From assembly GCF_035920445.1 (NCBI RefSeq), contig NZ_CP109162.1, positions 3,038,001 through 3,102,000 on the forward strand: a stretch of DNA of 64,000 nucleotides. The letters are read 5' to 3'. Numbering within the stretch: the stretch's first letter is position 1; each line of letters starts with the position of its first letter. The notes under the pieces are model-generated. The model did not search any database, had not been told where the DNA came from, and saw only the letters and a list, made by a program, of their open reading frames with translations. The DNA is from Nocardia sp. NBC_01730. GTDB taxonomy: Bacteria > Actinomycetota > Actinomycetes > Mycobacteriales > Mycobacteriaceae. The position numbers and the translations under genes are program-made. Positions 25,007 to 60,415 of this stretch are shown here, piece after piece.

Positions 25007-25036
25007 ACCCCTGTCCACTATTTGGGGTGAACCTCA

Positions 25037-38043: not shown

Positions 38044-38073
38044 TGAGGTTCACCCCAAATAGTGGACAGGGGT

Positions 38074-38913: not shown

Positions 38914-38995
38914 ACGACGGATCGAGAATCGTTGCCCCTCGGGGCGCTGGTGCCCGCGGTCTCGGCGATGTCATCGGGGCCGGCGTACTTCACCA

Positions 38996-39319: not shown

Positions 39320-39403
39320 AACGGACATCCTTACCAGCAGAACCATCGATCCTGCTAACTCGGTGTCCACTTCCAGGGGTGAACCTCATACTGAGGTTCA
39401 CCC

Positions 39404-44113: not shown

Positions 44114-44830
44114 CTACTTGGCAGGGGTTGCTGGCATCGGCGAGTTGATGGTGGTGAAGTACTGCGCTGCGGCCATGATCGCCACTGGCGCGGTGACCAA
44201 TAGCTGACCGGCGAGGGTGCCGATCGCGCCTACCGCGATGATGCCGCCAAGGCAGCCGATGGCGGCGGCCGGGACAACTGGGCCGAACAGGCCGACGATG
44301 GTGGCCGAGGCTACGGTAGCGCCGGCGACTCCACCGAGCACACAGCCGACCGCTCCGCCGCCGAGTCCGCCGACCAGGGTGCCGATGGTGGCGCCCATTC
44401 CGATGGTGGTGGTCATGCGGCTCCATGCGGCCTGCTCACGATCGTATGGGGTTCTCCGTGGCGCCTGGTCCTCGAAGGGTAAGGCGACCGGTTGGTAGGC
44501 CGCATGGGTGAGGTCGAACTGCGGGGTTAGGGTGGCTGTGCGGTCGTGGATGTCGGCGGCTATCGGGAAGACGAAATCGTCGACGCGGAAGGCGAGTTCG
44601 GTGCCTGCGAGTGCGGTTCCGTTGGCTGCCTTGATCTTGAAGATGCCGTCTTCGATCGCGAGTGAGCCGGCGTCGGTGGTGATGGTCGTTGCGCTTTCGC
44701 CGACCCTGGCCTTGTAGTTGACGGCCGTCGTTGTCTCGGGGGCGGCGGCGCCGACGCCGGTGCTGGCAACGAGCGCGGCGATCAGTCCGGCTGCGATCAG
44801 CGACCCGCGGTTGGCAGTGGATTCCCTCAT
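44114..44830 (-). CDS. secreted/envelope protein with glycine-zipper C-terminus
   Basis: A 238-residue protein with an N-terminal signal peptide (SLIAAGLIAALVASTGVGAAA, cleavage near AAA-PE). A beta-rich soluble domain (ITTDAGSLAIEDGIFKIKAA) follows, then a C-terminal hydrophobic region of Gly-zipper type (GMGATIGTLVGGLGGGAVG, AAAIGCLGGIIAVGAIGTLA). The layout matches secreted Nocardia/Mycobacteriales proteins that I recall as DUF8020-like. Glycine zippers insert in or oligomerise on membranes. It lies 51 bases downstream of the siderophore operon on the same strand; a link to siderophore handling is not shown. Confidence 0.75.
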   Translation of the reverse strand: MRESTANRGSLIAAGLIAALVASTGVGAAAPETTTAVNYKARVGESATTITTDAGSLAIEDGIFKIKAANGTALAGTELAFRVDDFVFPIAADIHDRTATLTPQFDLTHAAYQPVALPFEDQAPRRTPYDREQAAWSRMTTTIGMGATIGTLVGGLGGGAVGCVLGGVAGATVASATIVGLFGPVVPAAAIGCLGGIIAVGAIGTLAGQLLVTAPVAIMAAAQYFTTINSPMPATPAK

Positions 44831-44881: not shown

Positions 44882-45649
44882 TCAGCTGCGCAGCACGGCG
44901 AGGTTGTTTCGCAGTGCCGCGGCTGCCATGTCGGCCGCGTCGCCGTGCACGAAAGCCCGAACCCCGGCCTCGTGCCAGTGGGCGTACCGCTCCGTGGTGC
45001 GGACGATCGCCCCGAACGGCACGTCGTGGTTGGAGCAAGCGTTGTGCAGCCGGTCGACCGCCGAGAGCACCAGCGGGTGCCGCAATTGCCAAGGCACGCC
45101 GTAGGATTGGGACAGATCTCCGGGGCCGGGCAGCACCAGGTCGATATTGCCGCCGGTCAGGATGTCGTCGATCGCTTCGACACCGTCGGCGTCCTCGAGC
45201 AACGGGACCATCATGATTTCGGCGTTGGCTGCAGCCAGATGCTGGACCGGATCGGCCGATCCGAATCGCGTGGTCCGCCCGCTTCCTAGCGACCGCATTC
45301 CAATGGGGGTGTAGTAGGCGGCTTTGATGGCGGTGTCGATGTCGGCGCGGCTGCACACATGTGGTACGACGATGCCGAGCGCGCCGGCGTCCAGGGCCCG
45401 CAGGATTGCGCCCGGATCGTTTGATGGGACTCGCACCAATGGTGTGAGGGCGGTCGTCTCCGCGGCGCGGATCAAGTTCTCCAGCTGCTGTGGGTCGAGC
45501 TGGGTGTGCTCGGTGTCGAGGACAACGAAGTCGTAACCGCCGTAACCGATCATTTCGACGAGCGCGGGGGCGGGGATCGAGCAGAACAACCCGTGTACCG
45601 GCTCACCGGCCGTGATCTTTCGCTTGACAGCGTTCACACGCATCGTCAT
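44882..45649 (-). CDS. HpcH/HpaI-fold citrate synthase-like enzyme (SbnG-like), siderophore pathway
   Basis: A 255-residue TIM-barrel protein. The start MTMRVNAVKRK is set by GGAGG 4-8 bases upstream on the minus strand. Family marks: HGLFCSIPAPALVEMIGYGG, FVVLDTEHTQLD, LVRVPSNDPGAILRALDAG, IVVPHV, MMVPLLED (metal Glu) and IDLVLPGPGDLSQSYG (metal Asp). In staphyloferrin B clusters SbnG, a member of this aldolase fold, condenses oxaloacetate and acetyl-CoA to citrate for the siderophore. The downstream position of an SbnH-like/NIS operon supports the same role here, giving citrate independent of the TCA cycle. It overlaps the decarboxylase gene by 4 bases (ATGA). Last gene of the operon. Confidence 0.85.
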   Translation of the reverse strand: MTMRVNAVKRKITAGEPVHGLFCSIPAPALVEMIGYGGYDFVVLDTEHTQLDPQQLENLIRAAETTALTPLVRVPSNDPGAILRALDAGALGIVVPHVCSRADIDTAIKAAYYTPIGMRSLGSGRTTRFGSADPVQHLAAANAEIMMVPLLEDADGVEAIDDILTGGNIDLVLPGPGDLSQSYGVPWQLRHPLVLSAVDRLHNACSNHDVPFGAIVRTTERYAHWHEAGVRAFVHGDAADMAAAALRNNLAVLRS

Positions 45650-46872
45650 TCGACCTCCGCGTGCAGTGCGTCGTCGACGATATGGACGCTGGGCGGCGGA
45701 TGCATCAAGAAGTTGTGATGGGAGATGTTCCATGCGTAGGCGCCGGCGAGCCCGAAGGCCACGCGGTCTCCCACGCGCAGGCCGACGGCTGGAACATTCC
45801 TGGCTAAAGTGTCTTTCGGTGTGCACAGCTGCCCGCAGATGGTGACCATTCGACCTGCAGCGGTCGGCCGCGGCCATGGGTTGTCCCACCCATCCACGGC
45901 CACGACTGCACAAGGTTGGTCGTGGCCTTTGGCGGCGGGGGTACGCAGATGGTGTGTTCCGCCTCGGACCACGGCGAATCCCGCACCGTGACTGGGCTTC
46001 ACGTCCAATACGTCGGTGACGTACCAGCCGCAGTACGCGGTCATCGCTCGTCCGGGTTCGATGCTCAATTGCAGCCCGGGCCAGGCGTCGGCGATAGCCG
46101 CGAGACCCGAGCCATAGGTGGTCCAATCGAAGCAGTCACCAGGCATTCGATAGTCGACGTTCATTCCGCCGCCCACATTCACCTCGGTGAGTTGAACACC
46201 GTGGCGCTGCGCAATGTCAGTCGACCACCGCACCACCGATTCCGCAACCTCGACCAGATCGGTGGCTTCGAGCCCGCTGGCCAGATGCGCGTGAACACCC
46301 TCCCAGCGCAAACTTGGGAATTTGTTGCCGGCCAGAGCGGCGGCGGCGATCTCGGCCTGACTCGGATCCAGGCCGAATTGAGACGGTCGGCCGCCCATTG
46401 ACAGGGCACTACCGGACAGTGCTTTGCTGCCGACGGGTACGTTCACCCGAAGCAGCACGCTAACTAGCAGCCCTGGCCGGTCGGCGGCCAGTTGTGCAAG
46501 CATCCGCAGTTCACCGACACTCTCCACGTGAATCCGATGCACGCCGAGGTCGAGCGCTGCCCTCAGTTCAGCACGTGTCTTGCCTGGACCGCCGAAAGCC
46601 AGCGGCAGTCCCGGAACCACTTCGGCGACGTGGGACAACTCGCCACCGGAGGAGACTTCGAAGCCGTCGACAATCGTGGACAGTGCCGCAAGGATTTTTG
46701 ATTCGGGGTTGGCCTTGGCCGCGTAATACAGTGTGACCCGTTCGGGTAACACAGACCGTATGAATGCGGCGTGGTCGCGTAGTCCGGCGAGGTCGTAGAT
46801 GTAGGCGGGAAGTTCGGCGGAGGCCAGGGTGTCGATCTTCGTGCGCACCGCGTCGCTGAGCGGAATCATCAC
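45646..46872 (-). CDS. type III PLP-dependent decarboxylase (SbnH-like)
   Basis: A 408-residue alanine-racemase-fold decarboxylase. PLP Lys53 lies in LYYAAKANPE. FEVSSGGELSHV, VNVGGGMNVDY (phosphate-binding Gly loop), LSIEPGRAMTAYCGWYV and ICGQLCTPKDTLARNV (active-site Cys) follow, then GAYAWNISHHNFLMHP, the hallmark end of SbnH-type enzymes. SbnH decarboxylates citryl-2,3-diaminopropionate in staphyloferrin B assembly. Its overlap with both neighbours ties it to the operon. The exact substrate here (citryl-Dap or another citryl-amino acid) cannot be read from sequence. Confidence 0.9.
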   Translation of the reverse strand: MMIPLSDAVRTKIDTLASAELPAYIYDLAGLRDHAAFIRSVLPERVTLYYAAKANPESKILAALSTIVDGFEVSSGGELSHVAEVVPGLPLAFGGPGKTRAELRAALDLGVHRIHVESVGELRMLAQLAADRPGLLVSVLLRVNVPVGSKALSGSALSMGGRPSQFGLDPSQAEIAAAALAGNKFPSLRWEGVHAHLASGLEATDLVEVAESVVRWSTDIAQRHGVQLTEVNVGGGMNVDYRMPGDCFDWTTYGSGLAAIADAWPGLQLSIEPGRAMTAYCGWYVTDVLDVKPSHGAGFAVVRGGTHHLRTPAAKGHDQPCAVVAVDGWDNPWPRPTAAGRMVTICGQLCTPKDTLARNVPAVGLRVGDRVAFGLAGAYAWNISHHNFLMHPPPSVHIVDDALHAEVE

Positions 46873-48665
46873 CGACCCCCTACGGTTTCGGTAGTGTTCG
46901 TCTGCGCTGGAACTTGGTCGGCGCTCACGAACGGGGACGGGATCTGGACGTAGCCGGCGTCACGGTCAGCTTTGCGTTCCCAGCGGGTCAGCAGATTGGC
47001 CTTGGCGGGCAGCGGAACTCCCGCAAGAAGCGCAGAAAGGCTTGGAGGGCAACTATTTTCATCTGCGTATCGACGCAGTGTCGTGTAAACCCGGTGCCAG
47101 AGATCCCGTTCCAGGTCGGGTCGCAGATCAGCCAGTACGGCCAGGGTTTCCGCAACGTTGTTGACCAGCAAGCAGTACACGACGCGACTCCAGCCCTGCT
47201 GGGCGTCGTAGCTCATCCGGTCGGCCACCTCGGGCAACAGCCCTGCCAGCGCTGCGGCATGCCGCTCGGGCAGCAGCTTCGTGCCTTCCAGATCACGGAA
47301 CAACACCTGCACGGGCAGGCCGCTGGTGTCGACACCGATCACGACGTTCTGCAAGTGTGGTTCCAGCACGACTCCGTGGTCGAAGTATGCGGCTAGCACT
47401 GGTGGGACGGCCAGGTCGAGATAGGCTGTCCACCATCGCAATACGTCGTCACTGTTGTGTCCGCGGATTAATTGCGAGATGTGCGCTGAGCTGGTCGGGT
47501 ACTCGTCGGCGACCGCGGCGGTGAGCAGGGCGGTGACGCCGGGCCGCAGCCGCCGGGCGAGACCTTCCCGGACGATGACACCGAAACCTTCCAGTAGTGC
47601 GCGGTCTGCGGTCCCGTCGGCCCCTGGGAGGGCCAGGCTGCGATAGGCGGGTTCGCGCAGTATCACCGCAGCTGGGAACCGCTGCGCGAGGTCGTCGAAG
47701 ACCGGGTGCAGGATGCGGGTCAAGGCCACTGCGCCGGACAGTTCGTAGGTGGCGTTCTTACGCAGGCAGTTGGTGATGCGGACGTTGAGGCTGAACTTCA
47801 GGAATGTCTCGCCGTCGTAGAGTGTGCGCACCGAGGCGGTGGCGGCGAAGGCTCGGTCCCCGGTGCCCAGATCCACGATGTCACCGCGCTCGAGCGCGGT
47901 GTACAACGCAGTGTTGTCTCGTAATAGCTCGTACTGCCACGGATGTACGGGCAACAACCGGAAGCCTGCGGGCAGATCGGCGTGCAGGTTATCGATTGCT
48001 GTCAGCGCTGCGGTGTCGGCGGATTCTTCCGCGATCAGGTGCGATCGTACGGCCAGCAGACGGAGCCCGAACACGGCACCGAACTCAGGGGCGTACCGTG
48101 TCCAGGACTCCTGCTCACCGCTGCGCGACTTCGGCGTGGGGTGGAAGCGGTGGCCGAACAGCAGCGACTGCTCCGATGTCAGGTAATCGATGTCTGTGGG
48201 CCCCTCGCGGTGGTAGTTCACAGCCGCGGTGACGGTTTCGTGGCTGTTGGCGACCTGGTCGAGGAACTCGTCGTTGGCGACACCGGTGCGCAGGGACAAT
48301 TCGTCGCGGATGTGCGATGCCAGTTCTCGCCAGCTCACCGTGGCCCAGCCGCCGGCCCGCAGTTCACGCACCGGACCGCGGAATCGATGTGCACCGAACA
48401 ACGAGGTTCGCCGTAGTTGCGCGCGGAGCAGTACGCCTCGCCGCGGTAGCCGCAGGATTATGTGGTCGTCGGTCACTGTGGCCTGATGCTCCGGCCCGGA
48501 CACCTCACGGAGTAGACAGTTGAGCAGGGTGTGAGCCACAACGTCATCGGGAACGGGTAGGCGGTCGGCAGTTTGTGGGTGCAGGCCGGGTGATTCGGCC
48601 GCAGTTGGCTGGACTGTCGCCGCGTCCAGTGATTCGGTTGGCTCGGCGGTGTTGAGTGAAGACAT
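46869..48665 (-). CDS. IucA/IucC-family NIS siderophore synthetase
   Basis: A 598-residue synthetase. The start MSSLNTAEPTESLD is chosen for GGAG 6 bases upstream; an ATG at 48677 would overlap the MFS stop. IucA/IucC marks include LLFGHRFHPTPKSRSG, LLPVHPWQYE, TASVRTLYDGETFLKFSLNV (nucleotide-binding), RITNCLRKNATYEL, LREPAYRSL, VVLEPHLQNVVIGVD and LFRDLEGTKLLPERH; the C-terminal FhuF-like domain has VYCLLVNNVAETLAVL. Such enzymes adenylate a carboxyl of citrate or a citryl intermediate and condense it with an amine. The KLLPE-type ending suggests a late-acting SbnF/SbnE-like member, but the subtype needs a tree. It overlaps the decarboxylase gene. Confidence 0.93.
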   Translation of the reverse strand: MSSLNTAEPTESLDAATVQPTAAESPGLHPQTADRLPVPDDVVAHTLLNCLLREVSGPEHQATVTDDHIILRLPRRGVLLRAQLRRTSLFGAHRFRGPVRELRAGGWATVSWRELASHIRDELSLRTGVANDEFLDQVANSHETVTAAVNYHREGPTDIDYLTSEQSLLFGHRFHPTPKSRSGEQESWTRYAPEFGAVFGLRLLAVRSHLIAEESADTAALTAIDNLHADLPAGFRLLPVHPWQYELLRDNTALYTALERGDIVDLGTGDRAFAATASVRTLYDGETFLKFSLNVRITNCLRKNATYELSGAVALTRILHPVFDDLAQRFPAAVILREPAYRSLALPGADGTADRALLEGFGVIVREGLARRLRPGVTALLTAAVADEYPTSSAHISQLIRGHNSDDVLRWWTAYLDLAVPPVLAAYFDHGVVLEPHLQNVVIGVDTSGLPVQVLFRDLEGTKLLPERHAAALAGLLPEVADRMSYDAQQGWSRVVYCLLVNNVAETLAVLADLRPDLERDLWHRVYTTLRRYADENSCPPSLSALLAGVPLPAKANLLTRWERKADRDAGYVQIPSPFVSADQVPAQTNTTETVGGR

Positions 48666-48676
48666 GGGGTACTCCA

Positions 48677-49867
48677 TCAGTCGTGTGAGACGTGCGAGCG
48701 GAACATGGTGGCCAGTGCGACGGTCATGCCGGCCGCGGCTGCCAGGCCACCCGCAGCAGTAGGTGCGGCAGGGCCGAACCGGACAGCAGCGGCGGTGGCC
48801 GTAACCCCGGCGGCCACGGCGCCGGCCTTGGCGAAGAACTCCAACGAGCCGAACATGCCGCCGGGTGCGCGCCCCGCGGCGCACTGTGCAGCAAGAGCGT
48901 TACGGCCCAGCAGGCACAGGGTGAGGCCCACACCCAGCATGAGCCGGGCCAGGATGAACCCGGCCAGTGATCCGATCACCATGTGCGCGATAGAACCGAC
49001 GGCCAGACAGGCGAATCCGACTGCAACCGGCCGGGTCACCCCGCCGCGCAGCCGTCGCTGTACCGGTATGACCGTGATCAGATAGATCAAGTGCGGCAGC
49101 GCGAACAACACCCCGGCGACAACCGGTGGCAGCCCCGGCAGTCGGGTGCCGATCAACATCACCAGATACGGAAACGAGACCACGGTCGCGAACACCACCG
49201 TGAATTCCAGCGCGAACAGCCCACGCAGCGACATGTGAGTGGTTGTGCCAGTCGATGTTTCGGAATCAGTGAGCTGCTTGTATGGCTCCGGCTCCGGCAG
49301 CTTCGCGAGCAGCAACGCGGCGCCGAGTGGCAACAGCGCGAGCACCAGGTACTGTCGGTGCGGCGAAAGCCATGGCGAGAGTAGCCCGATCACAATCGGC
49401 GCGAACACCAGTGCGGCGCGGGCGCTGGCCTGCAGGATGGTCAACGCCCGCGTCAGCGCCGGAGCTTGCAGCGCCGCACCGAGATAACCGTTCGACGCGG
49501 CGAACGTGCCGCCCAGCACCCCCTGCAGGACCAGTGCCGCAGTGAATACCGGCAGCGAATCCGCCCAGCCCGCCAAGATAAACGCCAACGTCAGGCCGAG
49601 CTGGGCACGCAACAACAATTTCTTGCGTCCGAACCGGTCGGCCAGCCTGCCCCACAGCGGCGCCCCCAGCCCACCGAACACGGTCGGTACGACATACAGC
49701 AGACCCGCCCATCGGGCATTGGGATCACCCAACTCTGGGAGCATGGCGGTCAGATACGGCGGCAGTCCCAGGGCGGCGAACGAGGCCACGAAGTAACAGC
49801 CCGCCACCAGATAAACTTGCTGGTCGCCGGCGATTTTCACTGGACGGCGCTGGTCGATAGTCGTCAT
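48677..49867 (-). CDS. MFS transporter, probable siderophore exporter (SbnD-like)
   Basis: A 396-residue membrane protein with about 12 hydrophobic segments. The inter-helix loop GRLADRFGRKKLLLRAQLGL carries the MFS motif A. The two halves are separated by a charged loop near 200-220 (KLPEPEPYKQLTDSETSTG). Position between two NIS synthetases and coupling by ATGA overlaps at both ends point to export of the finished siderophore, as for SbnD. The alternative of an unrelated drug exporter is unlikely in this context. Confidence 0.88.
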   Translation of the reverse strand: MTTIDQRRPVKIAGDQQVYLVAGCYFVASFAALGLPPYLTAMLPELGDPNARWAGLLYVVPTVFGGLGAPLWGRLADRFGRKKLLLRAQLGLTLAFILAGWADSLPVFTAALVLQGVLGGTFAASNGYLGAALQAPALTRALTILQASARAALVFAPIVIGLLSPWLSPHRQYLVLALLPLGAALLLAKLPEPEPYKQLTDSETSTGTTTHMSLRGLFALEFTVVFATVVSFPYLVMLIGTRLPGLPPVVAGVLFALPHLIYLITVIPVQRRLRGGVTRPVAVGFACLAVGSIAHMVIGSLAGFILARLMLGVGLTLCLLGRNALAAQCAAGRAPGGMFGSLEFFAKAGAVAAGVTATAAAVRFGPAAPTAAGGLAAAAGMTVALATMFRSHVSHD

Positions 49868-51657
49868 TGGTAACTCCCAAGATGCCGAAGGTAGTTGGGC
49901 CCGCTGGTGTAGTGCTTGTTGATATCGGCCGCGCCGGATCGCTGTTTGCTGAGCAGCGTCCCCGCGCTCACCATCGCCTTCACCGGCAGCGTCGGTGCGT
50001 CGAGTAGAGCGGCGCGCAGCCGAGCCCCAGCCACAAGGTCGATACGTGAGATGGCTTCCTCGAGCCGGTCACGCACCTGCCCCAACAACTGGGACAGCGG
50101 CGCATACCCGAGACGAGCAAGTTCGAATGCGTACCAGCCGGCGCACAGGTGCATGGTGATCGTGATGAACAGGTCGGTGAGCGGCTGGTCGTCGGTGACG
50201 TTGATGCGGGGGTCGATGAATGTTGCCGGTTCGGCGCCGATCCGTGCCTGCAGGCGGGCTGTATTGACCCGCGGTGTGTCGTTGTCCTTGAACAGCAGCC
50301 GCAGCCGGGTCATCGCGCCAGCGGCCGACGGGACGATGTCGAGTACCAGCGAGATGTTCTGCTGGTGCGCCTCGAGCGCGATACCGTATCCGAAAAGGGT
50401 GATCTGCCAATCGAAGAGCAGTCTGATCCAGGCATCGAAGAGCGCGACCGGGTCGCCGCTGTAGAACCGGTCGGCGAGATGGTCCAGGACTCGGCGTCCA
50501 TCGGGGGCCTCGCTGAGCAGCGCGGCCATCGGTACCACCACCGCTCCGTCGAGCGCCGCTGGGTAGCGGCGGCACAGTACCGCCAGCAGTTCATGCCCGG
50601 CGTGTGCGTAGGTACTCTCGTCGGCGAGCAGGATCATGGTCTGGAACCGCTCCTCGCGGGTGATCACTGCGATCAGCAACTGTTGGCAGAGTGCACCATC
50701 AGCGAGAGTGCGCGGGCGAATAGTGCGCAGGTTGCGCTGCCCCAGGGTCGCGGTCGCAAGCGGCAGCTTCAGGTGTTGGGCAGGGTCGCCGGCGCTGGCC
50801 ACTGTCCGCATGGACAGTGTCGGCACCACTTCGAGATAGGGCCGGTCCAACAACACGCACTCGTCGCTCAAACCCGATTCGCGCAGCGCCAAATCGAGCG
50901 TAGCGCCCACGGTCAGTGGGTGTACCGGTAGCAATACATGGCTGTCGGCCAGCCGTCGCAAGCCGACGCGGCCGGGGGTTGGCCAATACTCTGGGAATTC
51001 GGATCTGCCGGCGATGATCAGTGCGGTTCGCGGCACTGCCAGCCAGCGAAGCCGGAATCGGGGATGGAATTCCGGTGCATAGCAACGTAATTGGTTGGCA
51101 CTCAACCCCGATCGGGCGCGTCCGGCCGGGTGCACCGGGTGATCGAGGCGGGCAGCCAGGGTGTCGAAGGCGAGGCCGGCACCACCGGTCCAGTCGTCTA
51201 GTTGTCGACCGTAGTGCGCGATCAGCCGCGCCGAGACCCAGCTCCCGGTCTTCCGATGCAGCCGCATCGTCGCCAGGGCTTGGCCACATTCCTCAGCGAA
51301 GGCGGCGAATCCGGTGTGATCGGTGTGATCGGCGAAAGCGGTCAGCGCAGTGAGGACGTCCGCGATGGTCCGCAGCTGTCGACCGTCGGATTCACGCAGG
51401 ACCAGCGGCTCGCGGACGGAGTCGGCGCACAGGAACCCGTCCGGCTGCACCGGCAGCAGTAGGGCATCGGGGCCGAAAGCGGTCGTCCCGGCCAGCCGCA
51501 CCCAGTCCCCGTCTTCGCGCGTCAGCCGGGTGGCGTGTGTGCGCAGACCGACGACATCCTCGCGCAGCAGGGTTGCGAGCACCCGCGACACCAGCTCTGT
51601 TTCATCCGTGTCGGGATACCCGGTTGGTTCCGGGTGACGGGCGGAGGTCACGGTCAC
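49864..51657 (-). CDS. IucA/IucC-family NIS siderophore synthetase (second)
   Basis: A 597-residue paralogue. GTG at 51657 overlaps the ATP-grasp stop (GTGA) and gives MTVTSARHPEPTGY. Motifs: LRCYAPEFHPRFRLRWLAVP, HVLLPVHPLTVGATL, VPTLSMRTVASAGDPAQHLK, LPLATATLGQRNLRTI, LFGYGIALEAHQQNISLVLD, LFKDNDTPRVN and, in the C-terminal domain, LPVKAMVSAGTLLSKQ. It differs from the other synthetase in the nucleotide-binding strip (KLPLATATLGQR), so it probably handles a different carboxylate or amine. Its stop overlaps the MFS start. Confidence 0.93.
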   Translation of the reverse strand: MTVTSARHPEPTGYPDTDETELVSRVLATLLREDVVGLRTHATRLTREDGDWVRLAGTTAFGPDALLLPVQPDGFLCADSVREPLVLRESDGRQLRTIADVLTALTAFADHTDHTGFAAFAEECGQALATMRLHRKTGSWVSARLIAHYGRQLDDWTGGAGLAFDTLAARLDHPVHPAGRARSGLSANQLRCYAPEFHPRFRLRWLAVPRTALIIAGRSEFPEYWPTPGRVGLRRLADSHVLLPVHPLTVGATLDLALRESGLSDECVLLDRPYLEVVPTLSMRTVASAGDPAQHLKLPLATATLGQRNLRTIRPRTLADGALCQQLLIAVITREERFQTMILLADESTYAHAGHELLAVLCRRYPAALDGAVVVPMAALLSEAPDGRRVLDHLADRFYSGDPVALFDAWIRLLFDWQITLFGYGIALEAHQQNISLVLDIVPSAAGAMTRLRLLFKDNDTPRVNTARLQARIGAEPATFIDPRINVTDDQPLTDLFITITMHLCAGWYAFELARLGYAPLSQLLGQVRDRLEEAISRIDLVAGARLRAALLDAPTLPVKAMVSAGTLLSKQRSGAADINKHYTSGPNYLRHLGSYQ

Positions 51658-52844
51658 GACGCCACTTCCCACCGCTGGCCGGCCAGGAACTGTTCCGCCG
51701 CCTGGTCGACCGCCGCCGAGCAGTTGCCCACGGCCCGCAGCACTCCCACGTAGTCCCGGTTGGTGTGGGCAAGCTCGTGCGGCGTGCCGATCTCGCGCAG
51801 CGGCCGGTAGGACAGCGCGACACCGTCCACGACAAGATCGGCCGCCGCCGGCGCGGAGATCAGTGTCCCCGAGGCGGGCGCGCAGACATGATCGATTCGG
51901 GCGGCTCTGTCGGTGCGGAACCCGAGATCGTCCGGGAGCGGTTCGCCCAAATGTGTGCGCAGAATACGTTCGAACAGTGGTATTTCGAGCGCATCCTGCA
52001 ACAGGAGATCACACTGATCCCCGATGCTGCGGTAGTTGACCTCGATCAGTCGGGCCCGTCCGTTGGTCACGACGAATTCGGTGTGGCAGGAGCCGAATCC
52101 GATACCGAGCGCGTCGAGCTGGGCCATCACCTGGTCGGTTACCGGCTGCGGGTGCGCTGCGGTGAAGGTGTGCCGCAGTTCGATGAAATGTGGGGCCGCA
52201 GACAGCCGTGTGAGAAACCCACCGAGCACCTGCCGCCGTTGCGCGTCGCCGAGGGTTTCCAGGGTGCACAGGTCACCGTCGAGGTACTCCTCCACAACCA
52301 GGGCAGTGTTCGGGCGACGATGGCGAATTTCTTTGCAGCACCGTAAGAGATCGGTCATTCGACCGACCTGCACAACGTCCTCGCTGGCCACTCCTTCCCG
52401 TGGCTTGACCACACACGGGAACGGCACATCCAGGGCGGTGAGCGCGTCGGGATTGCGGTCTTGCAGCAGTTCGGCATGCCACACCACGTCCAGCCCGCAC
52501 GCAGTGAGCCGCCGCCGCATCTCGGCCTTGTTCTTCACCCGCCATGCGGTGCGCCAGTCCTTGCCGGGCAGACCGAAATAGGCTGCCGCCAGTGCCGCTT
52601 GCGCTTGCAGGTGGTCACTGTTGGTGAAGATCACATCAGGTGCTGGCAGAGCGGCGATGGTCGCCACGACCGCGTCAGAGCTGCGCAGGTCGCAGCGCAC
52701 GACGGTGATGTCGGGATGCCGGGTCCGATGCGGATCCGGCTGATCGGTGAGAATCGTGACCTCCATGCCCAGCGTCGCAGCGGCGGGGAGGAAACCTTCG
52801 GAGACGGAGTCGGTGGGATTGAGCGCAAGCAGATACAGCAGCAC
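51654..52844 (-). CDS. ATP-grasp ligase in siderophore operon
   Basis: A 396-residue enzyme. GTG at 52844 with GAGGA 7 bases upstream gives MLLYLLALNPTDSVSEG; the upstream in-frame sequence has no better start. ATP-grasp marks: WRVKNKAEMRRRL, FPCVVKPREGVASEDVVQV (ATP Lys), ALVVEEYLDGDLCTLETLGD, and LIEVNYRSIGDQCDLLLQDA (metal Glu/Asn). ATP-grasp enzymes form amide bonds via acyl phosphates. Staphyloferrin B clusters do not need one, so this enzyme may add an amino acid, make a dipeptide building block, or replace one NIS synthetase. It is coupled to the next gene by a GTGA overlap. Confidence 0.88.
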   Translation of the reverse strand: MLLYLLALNPTDSVSEGFLPAAATLGMEVTILTDQPDPHRTRHPDITVVRCDLRSSDAVVATIAALPAPDVIFTNSDHLQAQAALAAAYFGLPGKDWRTAWRVKNKAEMRRRLTACGLDVVWHAELLQDRNPDALTALDVPFPCVVKPREGVASEDVVQVGRMTDLLRCCKEIRHRRPNTALVVEEYLDGDLCTLETLGDAQRRQVLGGFLTRLSAAPHFIELRHTFTAAHPQPVTDQVMAQLDALGIGFGSCHTEFVVTNGRARLIEVNYRSIGDQCDLLLQDALEIPLFERILRTHLGEPLPDDLGFRTDRAARIDHVCAPASGTLISAPAAADLVVDGVALSYRPLREIGTPHELAHTNRDYVGVLRAVGNCSAAVDQAAEQFLAGQRWEVAS

Positions 52845-52939
52845 GGGCAGTTCCTCACGGTGAACTCGTAGAGCGATGTGCGACAAGGACAGTGGGCTGC
52901 TTCGGGCGGAATCCCCTGGTCGTCGCGCCCGCGGCCCGG

Positions 52940-53953
52940 TCAATTGGCGGGCAACTGGACGTCTGTCACGTGTGCGATGTCGGCGAGCATGCGTTGGGCG
53001 GCCTGCACACCGATACCCGACATCCACGTCTCGTCCGGCACGTCGAACACCTTGCCGTTTTTCACCGCGTGCAGATCGCGCCATATCGGGCCGGCTGTGA
53101 TGGTGTTCTTGTCCGTCTTGCCCGGATCGTCGATGGTCGCGACGAAGATCAGATCGGCATCGACCTGGTCGATCTGTTCCGGACCAACTTCTTTCATGGT
53201 CTTTTTCGGATCGGTGTACACTTGCGAGGCGGGGCGCGGCAGGCCGATGTCGTCGAGTACCACGCCGCTGAAGGAATTGTTCATGTACAGCCGCGTCGCT
53301 CCCGCGAGGAAGCGGACCACCGATGCGGTGGGCGGGGCACCGTTGTTCGCGGCCGTGATCGCAGCGCCCAGCGCCCGGGCGCGGTCCTCGTAATTCTTCA
53401 ACGCGTCGGCGGCCTGCCGATCCAGGCCGAGCGCCTTGGCATGCACAGCCAAGTTGGCCTTCCACGGACCACCGGTGGTTTCGGTGAAGACCGTCGGGGC
53501 GATGCCGGACAGCTTGTCGTAGATTTTCTCATGACGAACCTTCGACGACAGAATCAGATCGGGCTTCAGCGACGCGATGCGTTCGAGGTTCGGCTCCAGC
53601 AGTGGCCCGACGTCGATGACGCCGTCGAGCTTGCCGATGTAGTCGGGGAATCCGCCATGGGTTTTGGTGTGTGGCACGACCGCGCCGACCGGCTTGATCC
53701 CGAGCAGGGTGACCGAGTCGAGTTCAGCAGTATCGAGCACCACGATCCGCGTGGGCGCTTGTGGGATGGTCACCTGCCCCATCGCGGTGTCCAGCGTGCG
53801 CGGAAAGCTACCAACCGCTGCGGTCGGTGCAGTGGAATCGTTTGTGGCGGGCGTGTTTCCACACGCTGCGAGACCGGTCAGGCCGATGACAGCCGCGCAC
53901 AGCACGGCGCCGAAGCGGCGATATCTGGGCATGCGGAATTGTCGGTTGGACAT
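52940..53953 (-). CDS. FecB/FhuD-type siderophore-binding lipoprotein
   Basis: A 337-residue substrate-binding protein. Start MSNRQFRMPRYRR; a lipoprotein signal ends at LAAC with Cys31 as the lipidation site. The fold markers are TRIVVLDTAELDSVTLLGIK, PNLERIASLKPDLILSSKVR (typical linker helix) and ARALGAAITAANN. It captures ferric siderophore outside the membrane and hands it to the FecCD permease. It is separated from the ATPase gene by 100 bases and from the ATP-grasp gene by 95 bases, the only real gaps in the operon. Confidence 0.92.
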   Translation of the reverse strand: MSNRQFRMPRYRRFGAVLCAAVIGLTGLAACGNTPATNDSTAPTAAVGSFPRTLDTAMGQVTIPQAPTRIVVLDTAELDSVTLLGIKPVGAVVPHTKTHGGFPDYIGKLDGVIDVGPLLEPNLERIASLKPDLILSSKVRHEKIYDKLSGIAPTVFTETTGGPWKANLAVHAKALGLDRQAADALKNYEDRARALGAAITAANNGAPPTASVVRFLAGATRLYMNNSFSGVVLDDIGLPRPASQVYTDPKKTMKEVGPEQIDQVDADLIFVATIDDPGKTDKNTITAGPIWRDLHAVKNGKVFDVPDETWMSGIGVQAAQRMLADIAHVTDVQLPAN

Positions 53954-54038
53954 GGGGGATCCTCCTCTGTGGTGGTGATGCGTCGCCTGGTTCGCCGGGC
54001 GACGATGTGGTGTGGCCGATCGAGCCTCGAGCGCGAAC

Positions 54039-54054
54039 GGCGGAGTGCTCCGCC
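54039..54054. terminator. short perfect palindrome after the ABC-ATPase gene
   Basis: GGCGGAG-TG-CTCCGCC lies in the transporter gap immediately after the stop codon of the ATPase gene. It may attenuate transcription into the binding-protein and biosynthetic genes. The stem is only 7 bp and no T-run follows. Confidence 0.4.
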
Positions 54055-54863
54055 TAGGAGCCGCCGCTATGTCGGGCGGTCCGGCCGAAGGGAACGACCA
54101 GCGGTGTCGCGGTCTCGGGATCGGGGATGACGCGGCATTCGACGTCGAAGACCGTGCGCACCAGCCCGGCGTCGAGTACCTCGGCGGGCGGGCCGGCTGC
54201 GGCCAGCCGCCCTTGGTGCAGCACGACCAGATGGTCGGCGTAGCGGGCGGCCTGTCCCAGATCGTGCAGCACCATAACGATGGTGCGACCGGCCTCCTGG
54301 TGCAGATCTGCGACCAGGTCGAGCACGTCGAGCTGGTGGCGCAGGTCAAGGAACGTGGTCGGCTCGTCCAACAGCAGCAGATCGGTGTCTTGTGCCAGCA
54401 CCAGCGCGATCCATGCGCGCTGACGTTGACCACCGGAGAGCCTGTCGACCGGCTGGTCGCGCAGGGCGGCAGTGCCGGTGCGGCGCAATGCTGTTTCCAC
54501 AGCCATCTGATCCACGGCCGACCATGGGCGCAGCAATCGCTGGTGCGGATAGCGACCCAGCCGCACCAGCGCCTCGACGGTGATCTCATCGGGTGTGATC
54601 GGCTGCTGCGTGAGCAGCCCGAGCCGCACTGCTAGTGCGCGAGCCGACATCCGGTGCAGGTCGGCGCCATTCAGGGTGACCGTTCCTGCGCTTGGACGCA
54701 GCAGACGCGAAAGTCCGCGCAACAGAGTGGATTTTCCGCAGGCATTCGGTCCGACGATGGCGGTTATCGCTCCGCCGGGCAGCACCAGGTCCAGATTGTC
54801 GATCACGGCATGGTCACCATAGTGTAGGGCCAGATCACGAGTGGCCAGCACGTTGTCGCTCAC
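54054..54863 (-). CDS. ferric siderophore ABC transporter ATPase (FecE-like)
   Basis: A 269-residue ABC ATPase: Walker A GPNACGKST, Q-loop LLTQQPITPDEITVEALV, signature LSGGQRQRAW, Walker B LLLLDEPTTFLD and H-loop VLHDLGQAARYADH. The GRYPHQRLLRPWS insertion typical of FecE/FepC-type siderophore ATPases is present. It powers import of the ferric siderophore together with the two permeases upstream. It overlaps the preceding permease gene by 4 bases. Confidence 0.95.
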   Translation of the reverse strand: MSDNVLATRDLALHYGDHAVIDNLDLVLPGGAITAIVGPNACGKSTLLRGLSRLLRPSAGTVTLNGADLHRMSARALAVRLGLLTQQPITPDEITVEALVRLGRYPHQRLLRPWSAVDQMAVETALRRTGTAALRDQPVDRLSGGQRQRAWIALVLAQDTDLLLLDEPTTFLDLRHQLDVLDLVADLHQEAGRTIVMVLHDLGQAARYADHLVVLHQGRLAAAGPPAEVLDAGLVRTVFDVECRVIPDPETATPLVVPFGRTARHSGGS

Positions 54864-56083
54864 AGGTTCCTCCGATGGGCTGGGCCGCTCTCACGCAGCA
54901 TCAGAATCAGCAACCATGGCGCGCCGACCGTGGCGGTCACGGCACCGACCGGCAGGCCGCCGCCCAACAGGTGCCGGGCGAGCAGGTCGCAACCGCAGAG
55001 CAGAGTCGCGCCAGCGAGTCCAGTCACGGTCAGACTGGCGGGTGTGGGCGGCCCGGTCAGCAGCCGCACCAGCTGAGGCACCGCCAGCGCGACGAACGCG
55101 ATCGGCCCGCTCACCGCGGCAGCCAACGCCGCCAGCGCGACTGCCGTAACCAGCAGCCGAACCCGGGCCGTGGACACCGAGACACCAAGTGCGGCGGCCG
55201 AATCGTCGCCGAGATCGAGCACGGCCAGCGCTCGGTACTGAACGACCAGCGCCATCAACACCAGTGCCAAGACCACCATGGCCACCCGCACCTCGGACCA
55301 TGTGCGGCCGTACAGAGACCCCGCGGTCCACTGCATCGCCGATCCGGCAAGCTCTTTCGGAAACCGCACGACGATGAGGTTCACCGCGGCAGCCAGCCCA
55401 GCCTGCACGGCCAGACCTACCAGCACCAGCCGGGTGACCGGCAGGCGAGCCCGCCATCCGGCGGCGCCGAGCAGCACCGCCGACACCAGCCCGCCGCCGA
55501 GTGCGCCGTAGGGAATCATCAACTGCCCCGCACCGGCAGCGAGCACAACCACCGCGCCCAACGACGCCCCGCCGGTCACCCCGACCACATCCGGGGATGC
55601 CAACGGATTGCGGAACAGCCGTTGCAATACCGAACCGGACACGGCCAAACCACCGCCGGCCAGCAACCCGGCCATCAGACGCGGAGCGCGAAACTGCTGC
55701 ACGACATAGACATCGCCCGCATCACCGAAACCGAGCAATCCGCGCACCGCCACAGCCGCAGACATGCCAACCTCACCAGTGATGAGCGTAAGGAACACCA
55801 ACAGCAGCAGAACCCCCGCACAGACGACACCCAGCACGACATTCCGCCGCCACCCGCGGTGAGGACCGACAGCCGAATCCGCCACCCGAACATCACCGGA
55901 TACAGTGTTGGACAACCGTTCACGGCCCCACGATCCAGAAGCCACCTGCGGGTGCGCTGTACTGGCGTGCCCGTCGCGCGAGTCGGCGCCGACAGTGTTG
56001 GCTGACTTGTTGTGTACCGCCCGCGGTTCCAGGCTTTCAGCATATGGCGGCCGAGCTGGTACACGGCGTAGCAGCGATTTCAT
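54860..56083 (-). CDS. FecCD-family siderophore permease (second)
   Basis: A 407-residue permease. ATG at 56083 with GGAG upstream overlaps the stop of the first permease gene (ATGA). The first 80 residues are a long polar extension (NKSANTVGADSRDGHASTAH...), unusual for the family. Then come about 10 membrane helices with FRAPRLMAGLLAGGGLAVSG, FRNPLASPDVVGVTGGASLG, LGVSVSTARVRLL and VSGPIAFVALAVPQLVRLLT, all classic FecCD/BtuC motifs. It forms the heterodimeric channel with the next permease. Confidence 0.93.
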   Translation of the reverse strand: MKSLLRRVPARPPYAESLEPRAVHNKSANTVGADSRDGHASTAHPQVASGSWGRERLSNTVSGDVRVADSAVGPHRGWRRNVVLGVVCAGVLLLLVFLTLITGEVGMSAAVAVRGLLGFGDAGDVYVVQQFRAPRLMAGLLAGGGLAVSGSVLQRLFRNPLASPDVVGVTGGASLGAVVVLAAGAGQLMIPYGALGGGLVSAVLLGAAGWRARLPVTRLVLVGLAVQAGLAAAVNLIVVRFPKELAGSAMQWTAGSLYGRTWSEVRVAMVVLALVLMALVVQYRALAVLDLGDDSAAALGVSVSTARVRLLVTAVALAALAAAVSGPIAFVALAVPQLVRLLTGPPTPASLTVTGLAGATLLCGCDLLARHLLGGGLPVGAVTATVGAPWLLILMLRESGPAHRRNL

Positions 56084-57096
56084 TGGTGCTCCTTGCGGTT
56101 GGCGAGCATGGCCAGCAGCGGTGCACCCAGGAATGCGGTGACAATGCCGACCTGAACCTCGGACGGCGGGGCGATCAGCCGTCCAACGATGTCGGCGGAC
56201 AACAACAGCAGCGGGCCAGCGATCAAGCACCCATGGATTACCACCCGGTGATCCCGTCCAAGCACCAGACGCACCAAGTGTGGTGCGGCAAGGCCGATGA
56301 ACGCGATCGGCCCCGCGACCGAGACCGCGGAACCGGCCAGCAGTATCACTGCCACCATCCCGGCGAACCGGACTCGCCCAACCGGCAGGCCGAGCGACGC
56401 GGCAGCCTCGTCACCGAGGGCGAGCGTATTCATTGCAGGGCCCACAGCCCCTGCGATCACCGCGCCCGCGACCAGTGTCGGCAGCATCGGAACCAAGGTT
56501 CCCAAATCACGTCCGGCAATCGAACCGACCAGCCAGAACCGCGCCTCGTCCAGGGTGCGCTCGCTGAACAGCAGAACCGTGGAGCTCCACGAGACAAGCA
56601 CCAGATGCAGCACTGTGCCACTGAGTACCAGTCGAACCGGATCCAGGTCGCCGGCGCGACGACCGACAGCGAGAGCGAAGGCGGCGGCCCCAGCCGCACC
56701 GGCGAACGCGAACCCCAGGTATTGCACCGGCTGAGTCAGACCCAAGGCGTAGATGGCAACGACAACCACCAGCCCCGCACCGGCATTGATACCCAAGGTG
56801 GTCGGCGCTGCCAGCGGGTTGCGAGTGATTCCCTGAGCCACCGCACCGGCGAGCCCCAACGCCGCGCCGATGACCAGTCCGACGACTGTCCGAGGCAGCC
56901 GCAGGCCCGTCACAACGATGGCGTCACGGCCCCCACCTACACCGAAGAGGGCCTCGATGACCGCAGAAAGGGGCACCGAGCGAGTGCCCAGCGCGAGACT
57001 GCATGCAACGCACAGCATCAATGCAGAAAGCCCGACGCCCAGAATGGGGATTCGGCGCCATCTCAGGGCAGTTCTGCGCTCGTCTGTAAAGGCCAC
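56080..57096 (-). CDS. FecCD-family siderophore permease (first), operon leader
   Basis: A 338-residue permease with GLRLPRTVVGLVIGAALGLA, TRNPLAAPTTLGINAGAGLV, LGLPVGRVRFAG, VAGPIAFIGLAAPHLVRLVL and the end DIVGRLIAPPSEVQVGIVTA. Normal FecC length. It is the first gene after the iron-box promoter, with the operator 10 to 28 bases upstream of the ATG, so the whole ten-gene unit should be derepressed under iron limitation. Confidence 0.94.
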   Translation of the reverse strand: MAFTDERRTALRWRRIPILGVGLSALMLCVACSLALGTRSVPLSAVIEALFGVGGGRDAIVVTGLRLPRTVVGLVIGAALGLAGAVAQGITRNPLAAPTTLGINAGAGLVVVVAIYALGLTQPVQYLGFAFAGAAGAAAFALAVGRRAGDLDPVRLVLSGTVLHLVLVSWSSTVLLFSERTLDEARFWLVGSIAGRDLGTLVPMLPTLVAGAVIAGAVGPAMNTLALGDEAAASLGLPVGRVRFAGMVAVILLAGSAVSVAGPIAFIGLAAPHLVRLVLGRDHRVVIHGCLIAGPLLLLSADIVGRLIAPPSEVQVGIVTAFLGAPLLAMLANRKEHQ

Positions 57097-57104
57097 ATTC
57101 CGAG

Positions 57105-57133
57105 TTTACGTTAGCCAAACCTAATCTTGTCAA
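57105..57133 (-). promoter_or_regulatory. iron-box promoter (IdeR/DmdR-type) of the siderophore operon
   Basis: On the minus strand TTGACA (57133-57128) is followed after 17 bases by CGTAAA (57110-57105). Between and overlapping them lies TTAGGTTTGGCTAACGTAA (57124-57106), which differs from the classical 19-bp IdeR/DmdR box TTAGGTTAGGCTAACCTAA at two positions. Binding of the Fe(II)-loaded repressor here would block the promoter. Confidence 0.9.
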
Positions 57134-57556
57134 CATGAAATTAATGGTTGCGTTTTTTGTCGTAAGATTTGCGGGCGAAACGGCTACCGTGCAGAATCAG
57201 CCAGCTACGCTAGCTGGACGGTCACCTATCCCATTGTGAGGAATTGATTGTTTCGTGGTCTACTTGCGGTGTGCTGCCTATTCGGGGGTATGCTGTCAGT
57301 GTTGGTAGTGTCAGCTGCCCAGTAACTGGTGCGTCGGTCGGTTGCTACCATTCTTCATTGAGTGCGGCGGCCCCACCCGCCTCATCGGCGGTGGGACGCC
57401 GTATCCGCTGCACTTTATCGCGGCCACCGCCAGGACGCCCAAAAAATATACAAGCCTTGGGGGATATTGACACGGGCTGCTGCGGCGAGCCCTGCACTGT
57501 GTGGCTCGCTTGAGTGGTGGCTCGCCGGCGCGCTTTGCGAAATTGGAAGGATGATA
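57134..57556. other. intergenic region between siderophore operon and ketosynthase gene
   Basis: About 420 bases, lower GC near 57140-57170. It contains the imperfect hairpin at 57366-57400 that resembles the one at 41623-41653. No second iron box was seen toward the ketosynthase gene. Confidence 0.5.
57366..57400. repeat. imperfect hairpin related to 41623-41653
   Basis: GGCGGCCCCACCCGCC, loop TCATC, GGCGGTGGGACGCC with one bulged base, followed by GTATCCGCTGCAC as in the other copy. Confidence 0.65.
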
Positions 57557-58801
57557 GTGGGTAAGTTTATGGAACCGGACGGGGATCACATTGTGGTCGC
57601 GGGTATGGGCGTCGAAGCCCCGGGAGGCGTTGACAATACAGCGTCGCTCTGGCGTGCGCTGACCGAGAAACGTGAACTGATCGGCGTGTTCCCGCGCGAT
57701 CGAGGGTGGCCGCTCGACCGGGTCGGTGTATCGGCGGATGGCCGTTTCGCGGTTCCAGATGCGGGCGGTTTCCTGCGAAAGGCGACGATGTCCGACCCTG
57801 AATACCTCGGGGTTACGTGGGCGCAGGCTCGTGCGGCACAGAGGGTGTCCTGGCAGGCATTGGAGAACGCGCAGATCAATCCGGATAGTGTGGCCGGTGA
57901 GGCAGGCGGCTGCTTTATGGGAACTTCGTATCGGACATCGGCCACGACCATTGCAGAGGTTCCGGGATGGATCTCAAACAATCTGAGACTGTGTGGCCCT
58001 TCCGTGAGCGTGGATACAGCATGTGCGTCGGGTTTGAGTGCGTTGCATCTGGCGGCGGCCGCCATCAGAAATGGCGAGTGTGAATGGGCATTGGCGGGCG
58101 CCGTGTCTGTTATGGGTGAGCCGTCGGCATTCTTCGAATCTGCGAAAGTCGACGAGCTGGCCACAGACGGCCACTGCCGGTCCTTCGCCGACAATGCGTC
58201 CGGGACGGTGTGGGCCGAAGGCGCCGCGGCGGTTGTCCTGGAACGTGAATCCCGTGCCCGCCGACTGGGGCATCCGGTCTATGGCAGGCTCTTGGCGTCC
58301 CAGATCAACCACAACAGCAGCTATCGGCAACATATCGTGCCCAGCGCGGCGCAGGAACAACTGATCCGCCGGACCATCGCGCACGCAGGTATCGCTGCCG
58401 AGAAGGTCAGATTGATTGAAGGCCATGGCGGGGGCACACGAGCTGGAGACAGCGTCGAAGTGACTGCGTTGCAGAATACATACGGATTGACCGACCCGGC
58501 ACGGGGCGGCTCGTTGCTGGGTTCGGTGAAATCCAACCTTGGGCATGCCCAAGGCGCGGCGAGCATGCTAGGACTGATCAAACTGCTGCTGTGTGGCGTT
58601 AACGGCCAGATCGCGCCCAGCCTTTTCGCCGATACGCCGACCACCGAAGTGGACTGGGAAGCCAGCAGCCTCCGCCTCGCATCGAAGCTCGAGCCGTGGC
58701 CACTGAACGACGGCTTCCGGTATGGGGCCGTCTCGTCGTTCGGAATGACCGGAACGAATGCCCACGCAATCCTGGCCATGCCTGGAACGGACCCGTCCTG
58801 A
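57557..58801 (+). CDS. free-standing polyketide beta-ketoacyl synthase
   Basis: A 414-residue thiolase-fold ketosynthase. GTG at 57557 has GGAAGG 6 bases upstream; ATGs at 57551 and 57569 are alternatives. Domain text: IVVAGMGVEAPGGVDNTASL, catalytic Cys156 in SVDTACASGLSALHLA, His290 in EGHGGGTRAGDSVE (the usual EAHGTGTxLGD is altered to EGHGGGT), second His in KSNLGHAQGAASMLGLIK and TNAHAILAMPG at the end. All three catalytic residues are kept. It is divergent from the siderophore operon. Either a trans-acting KS or the first domain of a modular PKS whose remainder has been lost, as the following sequence suggests. Confidence 0.88.
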   Translation: MGKFMEPDGDHIVVAGMGVEAPGGVDNTASLWRALTEKRELIGVFPRDRGWPLDRVGVSADGRFAVPDAGGFLRKATMSDPEYLGVTWAQARAAQRVSWQALENAQINPDSVAGEAGGCFMGTSYRTSATTIAEVPGWISNNLRLCGPSVSVDTACASGLSALHLAAAAIRNGECEWALAGAVSVMGEPSAFFESAKVDELATDGHCRSFADNASGTVWAEGAAAVVLERESRARRLGHPVYGRLLASQINHNSSYRQHIVPSAAQEQLIRRTIAHAGIAAEKVRLIEGHGGGTRAGDSVEVTALQNTYGLTDPARGGSLLGSVKSNLGHAQGAASMLGLIKLLLCGVNGQIAPSLFADTPTTEVDWEASSLRLASKLEPWPLNDGFRYGAVSSFGMTGTNAHAILAMPGTDPS

Positions 58802-59070: not shown

Positions 59071-59100
59071 TGAGGTTCACCCCAAATAGTGGACAGGGGT

Positions 59101-59940
59101 TCAAGCAGCTTTTGCTGCGTCTGTCAGGAATTGCTCGTAGCGTAGGGGGCTGAGCATCCCGAGGGCGGAGTGCCGTCGATCATGGTTGTACTTGTTGATC
59201 CAATTGTCAACCGCAGCAACGAGTTCGGTCTTGGTGGCGTAGACGTGGCGGTAGTACGACTCGTGTTTGTAGGTCGACCAGAGCGATTCGGCGGGACTGT
59301 TGTCCCAACATATTCCGGTATCGCCCATCGACCGTTTCAGCTGGTGGCGGTGGCAGGCGTTGACTGTCATCGCCGCGGTGAACTCGCCCCCACGATCGGA
59401 ATGCAGCACGGTCCCTTCCACCGGATGCCCACGCACTGCTACGGCCTGGTCGATGGCTCGGCACACCACGTCGGCGCCGATGTGATCGGCCACGACGTGG
59501 GCGAGCACGCGGCGGGTATGTCCGTCACGGATGGCGCACAAGTACATGTCGCCCTGTCCGCAGGTCAGATATGTGAAATCGGTCGTCCAGACCGCGTCGG
59601 GGCGGCCTTGATCGAAGTTGCGGCGTACCAGGTCCGGCGGGAACGACGCGGCAGGATCGGTGATCGTGGTGCGGGCCTTGAACGTGCGTGGGCTGATGCC
59701 CTCGATCCCGATCCGGGCCATGATCGCCGCGACGGTCTTGGCACTGACCACCTCGCCACGTGCGCGTAGCTCGGCAGTGATCCGCGGAGAGCCGTAGGTA
59801 CCGTCGGACTCGGCGTGGACGTCGAGGATCTTCACCGTCAGATCGGCACGACGCCGCTGACGTGGCGTCGAAACCGTTGCCGTGCAACGTTTCACATACG
59901 CGTAGTAACCCGACGCCGACACTCCCAGCAGGCGCGCCAT
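59101..59940 (-). CDS. IS3-family transposase OrfB (copy 3)
   Basis: Same 279-residue DDE transposase as the other two copies, all catalytic residues present. Confidence 0.92.
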   Translation of the reverse strand: MARLLGVSASGYYAYVKRCTATVSTPRQRRRADLTVKILDVHAESDGTYGSPRITAELRARGEVVSAKTVAAIMARIGIEGISPRTFKARTTITDPAASFPPDLVRRNFDQGRPDAVWTTDFTYLTCGQGDMYLCAIRDGHTRRVLAHVVADHIGADVVCRAIDQAVAVRGHPVEGTVLHSDRGGEFTAAMTVNACHRHQLKRSMGDTGICWDNSPAESLWSTYKHESYYRHVYATKTELVAAVDNWINKYNHDRRHSALGMLSPLRYEQFLTDAAKAA

Positions 59941-60022
59941 ACGACGGATCGAGAATCGTTGCCCCTCGGGGCGCTGGTGCCCGCGGTCTCGGCGATGTCA
60001 TCGGGGCCGGCGTACTTCACCA

Positions 60023-60346: not shown

Positions 60347-60415
60347 AACGGACATCCTTACCAGCAGAACCATCGATCCTGCTAACTCGGTGTCCACTTC
60401 CAGGGGTGAACCTCC

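Follow-up and report, generated by a model that had tools for sequence, protein, structure and literature searches.

Which siderophore would be made by a Nocardia operon that resembles staphyloferrin B biosynthesis, carries an ATP-grasp ligase and has no SbnA or SbnB? The locus lies in Nocardia sp. NBC_01730, in a stretch of 64,000 nucleotides (the window) that corresponds to bases 3038001–3102000 of the single 8,676,891-base contig NZ_CP109162.1. Ten genes, which occupy 57096–44882 on the minus strand, encode, in order, FecC, FecD, FecE and FecB proteins, an ATP-grasp ligase, a nonribosomal peptide synthetase-independent siderophore (NIS) synthetase (NIS-1), a major facilitator superfamily (MFS) exporter, a second synthetase (NIS-2), a pyridoxal phosphate (PLP) decarboxylase and an SbnG-like protein of the HpcH/HpaI family. 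A preliminary description saw staphyloferrin B-like logic in this set, and suggested that the ATP-grasp enzyme may replace one condensation or provide a different amine. Gene order, trees of the synthetases and the decarboxylase, and clade tests all point instead to the pvs genes of vibrioferrin, a siderophore first known from marine vibrios. We consider the locus a siderophore operon of the vibrioferrin (pvs) type that provides its own citrate (probability roughly 0.86), and its product is predicted to be vibrioferrin or a close analogue. The pvs-type operon itself is of a known kind, not a new staphyloferrin pathway.

Gene order and enzyme relationships

The order pvsABCDE is linked to vibrioferrin in passages of PMC5812596 and PMC5577590, and part of PMC4465626 reports an identical pvs gene order in Azotobacter. 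We read the same succession of ATP-grasp, NIS, MFS, NIS and decarboxylase genes in Vibrio fortis, Piscirickettsia salmonis and Pantoea soli (where one gene is annotated PvsA), and a tblastn search extended the five-gene order to V. harveyi and V. chagasii. In place of V. parahaemolyticus, the comparison used V. fortis, V. harveyi, V. crassostreae and V. chagasii. The Nocardia genes match this order rather than that of sbn, and the ATP-grasp enzyme occupies the place of PvsA. Identities to the Vibrio and Pantoea proteins are 34–38% for the ATP-grasp enzyme, 32–37% for NIS-1, 32–36% for NIS-2 and 41–46% for the decarboxylase; those to Piscirickettsia are 32, 29, 30 and 39%, respectively. The ATP-grasp protein is 35% identical to that of V. 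fortis, 38% to P. soli PvsA and 47% to the protein encoded on pHG1 of Cupriavidus necator, and the MFS protein is 36% identical to the V. fortis gene product in the equivalent place. SbnA and SbnB are, as the preliminary description had it, missing from the ten genes. Since vibrioferrin needs neither of them nor a third synthetase, the absence of all three is expected.

Phylogenetic analysis of the synthetases used a tree of 52 rows that held the window and its relatives, pvs clusters, rhizobactin, aerobactin, two achromobactin-like clusters, two sbnA-adjoining clusters (Pseudonocardia and Agrobacterium) and a 407-amino acid (aa) piece of a third synthetase from the host genome. Three of the ten Vibrionales loci were taken into the trees, and loci L059–L061 were left out. 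NIS-1 falls inside an 18-row PvsB clade (support 100/99) that is sister to the SbnC/AcsA types. NIS-2 falls inside a 19-row PvsD+AcsD clade (support 100/99), with SbnE outside, and the actinobacterial NIS-1 and NIS-2 sequences each make clades of their own. Constraining the actinobacterial NIS-1 proteins to group with SbnC was rejected (approximately unbiased test, p-AU 3.6e-92), and grouping NIS-2 with SbnE was rejected less strongly (p-AU 0.0106). Because the groups were named after seeing the tree, several end branches are long and the rows differ in residue composition, single forks should not be overread.

The NIS alignment also highlights two group-specific motifs. All 18 PvsB-type rows contain KDND, which is found in none of the other 34, and all 19 PvsD/AcsD rows contain EPH before a conserved QN, which is found in none of the other 33; the core NIS motifs examined are intact in the window's synthetases. 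The SbnC model scores 250 bits with Agrobacterium SbnC, 119 with V. fortis PvsB and 82 with NIS-1, and the SbnF model scores 374 bits with Agrobacterium SbnF, 79 with V. fortis PvsD, 76 with the Sodalis AcsD-type protein and 65 with NIS-2. By sequence, the first synthetase is of the PvsB type and the second of the PvsD type, the latter not told apart from the AcsD type. The pair groups with vibrioferrin (and achromobactin-like) enzymes and not with SbnC and SbnE; where staphyloferrin B calls for three NIS synthetases (SbnC, SbnE and SbnF), the operon encodes two, both in other clades.

The decarboxylase is likewise separated from its staphyloferrin B counterpart. A 99/97 branch splits it from two SbnH rows and from the host's other decarboxylase, it lies on the same side of the tree as the achromobactin-like decarboxylase, and the constraint that joins it to SbnH has a p-AU of 0.0075. 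We classify it as a PvsE-type enzyme and not as SbnH; its earlier label, SbnH-like, holds at the family level only.

The resemblance of the last protein to SbnG, as first described, is strong. Its top matches among solved structures are 4tv5 (7.6e-57) and 4tv6 (2e-56), followed by a next best at 1.4e-28, and it aligns to 4tv5 across residues 6–240 without a gap; we take 4tv5 to be S. aureus SbnG (the entry itself is titled aldolase). An SbnG-like gene is expected of staphyloferrin B, and the sequence agrees, but such genes also lie within achromobactin-like clusters and some pvs clusters as well as in sbnA-bearing ones, so the gene is not diagnostic. We regard SbnG-like citrate synthases as an add-on of several citrate-based siderophore operons (sbn, achromobactin-like and some pvs) rather than as a staphyloferrin B marker. 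A 14-row tree of these proteins contains a Nocardia-Rhodococcus group (100/99) and is weakly resolved elsewhere, and thus does not tell the gene's origin. HpcH/HpaI loci of Priestia and Acinetobacter soli, which are without an annotated synthetase, were excluded from the comparison.

Domain searches agree with the original inventory of the operon. All ten genes have open reading frames (ORFs) and the expected Pfam domains, among them two IucA/IucC synthetases (both of IucA_IucC/FhuF architecture), the MFS exporter, the ATP-grasp ligase and a full FecBCDE-type importer (see table). The analysis supports the reading as an operon for a citrate-based carboxylate siderophore that also encodes an exporter and an importer. 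The statement that almost all genes are joined by 4-base overlaps was too strong: six of the nine junctions overlap in this way, and gaps of 100 bases (FecE–FecB), 95 bases (FecB–ATP-grasp) and 11 bases (MFS–NIS-2, a figure that depends on the start codon chosen for NIS-2) separate the others.

Table. Genes of the operon and the predicted iron box, with positions in the window
Feature	Position	Strand	Evidence and remarks
FecC-type permease	56080..57096	-	Pfam FecCD 4.4e-83
FecD-type permease	54860..56083	-	Pfam FecCD 1.3e-73; 4-base overlap with preceding gene
FecE-type ATPase	54054..54863	-	ABC_tran 2.8e-29; FepC-like and FecE profiles ~300 bits, under cut-offs
FecB-type binding lipoprotein	52940..53953	-	Peripla_BP_2 2e-29; top NCBIfam profile Fe(3+)-dicitrate binding protein, under cut-off
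ATP-grasp ligase, PvsA place, 396 aa	51654..52844	-	ATP-grasp_4 2.5e-10
NIS-1, putative PvsB-type synthetase, 597 aa	49864..51657	-	IucA_IucC 1.1e-32
MFS exporter, PvsC place	48677..49867	-	MFS_1 4.8e-24
NIS-2, putative PvsD/AcsD-type synthetase, 598 aa	46869..48665	-	IucA_IucC 8.1e-50
PLP decarboxylase, putative PvsE/AcsE type	45646..46872	-	Orn_Arg_deC_N 8.6e-29
SbnG-like HpcH/HpaI protein, putative citrate synthase, added to pvs set	44882..45649	-	HpcH_HpaI 2.4e-24
DtxR/IdeR-type iron box TTAGGTTTGGCTAACGTAA	57106..57124	-	9 bases ahead of FecC start codon; sequence match

Proposed pathway and competing explanations

Family membership suggests a route to the product. The SbnG-like enzyme would convert oxaloacetate and acetyl-CoA to citrate, which NIS-2 would esterify with serine; we propose this step because NIS-2 is placed with AcsD, an enzyme that joins serine to citrate. 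The PLP decarboxylase would then turn the serine part into ethanolamine. We place decarboxylation after citrate joining because SbnH acts following the first citrate condensation, as stated in a passage of PMC3179956. The ATP-grasp enzyme (PvsA) would put an amino acid, alanine in vibrioferrin, on the free amine. NIS-1 would add an alpha-ketoglutarate cap, followed by cyclisation, since it is placed beside the SbnC/AcsA types and the same part of PMC3179956 gives alpha-ketoglutarate as the SbnC substrate. The MFS protein would export the product, FecBCDE would re-import the iron complex, and a DtxR/IdeR-type repressor acting at the box before FecC would derepress the unit at low iron.

Several observations weigh against this assignment. 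The NIS tree does not separate PvsD from AcsD (fork 85/68), and joining NIS-2 to SbnE or the decarboxylase to SbnH is rejected at no better than p-AU 0.011 and 0.0075, respectively, for groups named post hoc. The hypothetical scheme in the relevant part of PMC5577590 has PvsE acting on free serine and PvsA forming the ester. Moreover, the five pvs proteins are only 32–43% identical to those of Vibrio, so their substrates may have shifted. With the pathway logic kept, a vibrioferrin analogue could arise if another amino acid took the place of alanine in the ATP-grasp step, or another keto acid that of alpha-ketoglutarate in the NIS-1 step. This would refine the vibrioferrin-type reading rather than exclude it, and we hold it tentatively, as a real but lesser possibility: the ATP-grasp protein shares only 34–35% identity with its three Vibrio counterparts in the comparison and the actinobacterial synthetases form their own clades, whereas all five steps are kept, the core NIS motifs examined are intact and no enzyme for making an unusual amino acid is encoded among the ten genes. 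Bolder, and in our view rather doubtful, is the picture of a Gram-positive vibrioferrin-type pathway that owes its independence from the citric acid cycle to the capture of an SbnG-like citrate synthase gene; its ATP-grasp enzyme would add something other than alanine to give an undescribed citrate-ethanolamine siderophore, and the genes would pass between species on segments bounded by insertion sequences (IS). We found no description of a vibrioferrin-type operon with an SbnG-like gene in the open-access literature searched.

Could genes elsewhere in the genome restore a staphyloferrin B- or achromobactin-like product? The SbnF-like reaction would then fall to a third IucA/IucC synthetase, at 1752282, and diaminopropionate would come from an SbnA/SbnB-like pair at 4926–4930 kb. 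Both loci exist, and the third synthetase groups with the IucC/SbnF/AcsC types (98/93), but it lies 1.3 Mb from the operon, has a PLP decarboxylase of its own adjoining (locus 1751460–1754599) and has a very long branch in the tree (2.11, with 407 of 659 aa used). The top curated profile at this locus is FslA (rhizoferrin), far under its cut-off. The genome search for SbnA and SbnB homologues that had been suggested at the outset returned two SbnB-family and 12 SbnA-family profile matches, none above curated cut-offs. Its sole neighbouring pair, one SbnA-like and one SbnB-like gene 1.5 kb apart (4926771–4930162), is in another cluster, of TauD, OCD, PLP decarboxylase, PALP and MATE genes (L031:7528–13912); sets of this kind occur in aminopolycarboxylate (ethylenediamine disuccinate-like) metallophore clusters, and the locus is possibly one of these. 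Part of PMC10920908 lists a Nocardia aminopolycarboxylic acid metallophore cluster that includes a MATE gene. Because both candidate loci sit among other genes of their own, and because the trees place NIS-1 and the operon's decarboxylase apart from SbnC and SbnH, we judge completion in trans very improbable. We reject a staphyloferrin B operon that has lost genes on the grounds of gene order, trees and clade tests. We give still less credence to a decayed, non-functional acquisition amid insertion sequences: IS copies on both sides and a sporadic occurrence (8/150 genus genomes) would fit it, but the ten frames are open, the core NIS motifs and the iron box are kept, and five of seven relatives preserve the order of all ten genes, with 61–81% identity. 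On the vibrioferrin-type reading, a puzzling 'staphyloferrin B without key enzymes' becomes a testable prediction, that of a vibrioferrin-type alpha-hydroxycarboxylate siderophore in Nocardia and related actinobacteria.

Iron box, distribution and genomic setting

A DtxR/IdeR-type iron box is predicted before the operon from sequence comparisons. The window's box differs at two positions from the 19-base DtxR/IdeR consensus; 100 shuffles gave no match, nor did a Markov-generated control of 938,193 bases. Boxes with at most four mismatches lie upstream of the operon in all eight genus loci (the window's included) and in 14 of the 15 loci scanned, with none in L060. The box is ~30 bases ahead of the estimated FecC start in six of the eight genus loci, again including the window, and ~255–275 bases ahead of FecB in L032 and L035, in which FecC does not come first.

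The operon occurs sporadically. At E<=1e-40, eight of 150 genus genomes, the window's among them, contain a match to NIS-1; at 1e-30, matches occur in three of 301 family-level genomes (own included) and in three of 396 phylum-level genomes (its own and two of one other genus). The relatives that keep all ten genes in order include L038, in which the NIS-2 matches are in two pieces. The order from FecB to the SbnG-like gene is also kept in L032, whose FecCDE genes are reversed, apart and only 41–54% alike. The contig of L035 ends past the MFS gene, and the stretch ahead of its FecB has no FecCDE match. Comparison of the ORFs in ~3–4 kb on each side of eight loci (L035 left out) identified flanking ORFs common to L033 and L034, and others common to L036, L037 and L038, with none shared between these groups; the operon therefore occupies at least two, and probably more, chromosomal neighbourhoods. 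The window's only shared flank gene is the secreted-protein gene after the operon, 72–73% identical in L033 and L034 (two of six relatives compared). Its 238-aa secreted-looking product (44114–44830, minus strand), encoded directly after the SbnG-like gene, is without a Pfam match. The space between the operon and an IS3-family copy holds a divergently oriented 479-aa ketosynthase-like ORF (57362–58801, plus strand), possibly a polyketide synthase fragment.

The preliminary description inferred that a mobile replicon may carry the cluster. The operon is inside the 8.68-Mb contig, and the assembly holds no separate replicon for it, but identical IS copies do flank it: two 1344-base IS3-family elements in direct orientation, 21 kb apart (38044–39387 and 59071–60414). 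The third identical copy in the window is at 23692–25036, and the host genome has five full identical copies, all inside 136 kb. We rejected a composite transposon, for which the 3-base CAA match at the outer ends is weak, since the second copy's final base is uncertain. A 515-base inverted pair (40654–41168 and 60438–60952, 99.6% identical) also flanks the operon and perhaps represents parts of another IS. Elsewhere, the window encodes a 2004-aa TrwC-type relaxase (4615–10629, plus strand), a phage-type integrase (27271–28269) and a Tn3 transposase (29354–32377). These three suggest an integrated conjugative element, and together with the IS copies they make an integrated mobile region plausible. 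A protein with an APH-type phosphotransferase domain is encoded at 18802–19740 (plus strand).

Comparison with known systems

Related gene sets occur in several actinobacteria. Part of PMC9394381 terms the Streptomyces avermitilis avs genes (SAV7320–7323) 'vibrioferrin-like', and we infer from the avs gene list that avs corresponds to loci of S. chartreusis, Embleya and Nonomuraea. These share the ATP-grasp, two NIS and decarboxylase genes with the Nocardia operon (62–67%, 53–58% and 40–51% identity, respectively) but have no SbnG-like match and no MFS gene between the synthetases. Locus L059, on a 9.5-Mb contig from a genome of the same class, has the nine genes from FecC to the decarboxylase in the same order, likewise with no SbnG-like match.

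Achromobactin (acs) clusters share with the Nocardia operon an SbnG-like gene, an AcsD-type synthetase nearest the PvsD type and a decarboxylase on the PvsE side. The Sodalis and Thalassospira loci, which we take to be of the achromobactin type, have three NIS genes, a diaminobutyrate transaminase and no annotated ATP-grasp gene, whereas the ten Nocardia genes include neither a third synthetase nor a transaminase. Staphyloferrin B (sbn) clusters share the SbnG-like gene, the PLP decarboxylase family, an MFS gene between synthetases and the NIS family. The Nocardia operon differs in lacking SbnA, SbnB and SbnF, in having an ATP-grasp gene, and in synthetases and a decarboxylase that fall in other clades; in Pseudonocardia and Agrobacterium, plasmid-borne clusters with sbnA encode three synthetases and lack an annotated ATP-grasp gene.

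Vibrio pvs loci share the five biosynthesis and export genes in order, an adjoining FecBCDE importer, and synthetases and a decarboxylase in or beside the same clades; the Nocardia operon has in addition the SbnG-like gene and the DtxR/IdeR-type box. Its importer genes are in front and in the same direction, whereas V. fortis carries them on the opposite strand, after two TonB receptor genes. No TonB receptor is among the ten Nocardia genes, as expected of an actinobacterium. The added gene has parallels as well: an SbnG-like gene lies behind the pvs-type block on C. necator pHG1 and at two Rhodococcus loci (L008 and L061), and ahead of it in Pantoea soli, and the Nocardia protein is 48% identical to that of the C. 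necator gene in the equivalent place. The C. necator H16 pHG1 and Rhodococcus plasmid loci share six genes with the Nocardia operon, from ATP-grasp to SbnG-like, in the same order; the Cupriavidus cluster carries a TonB receptor, and the Rhodococcus importer is downstream and partly reversed. With its pvs-type cluster and citrate-synthase-like gene (L004:11971–20024) on the conjugative megaplasmid pHG1, the well-studied strain H16 offers a handy system for finding the product.

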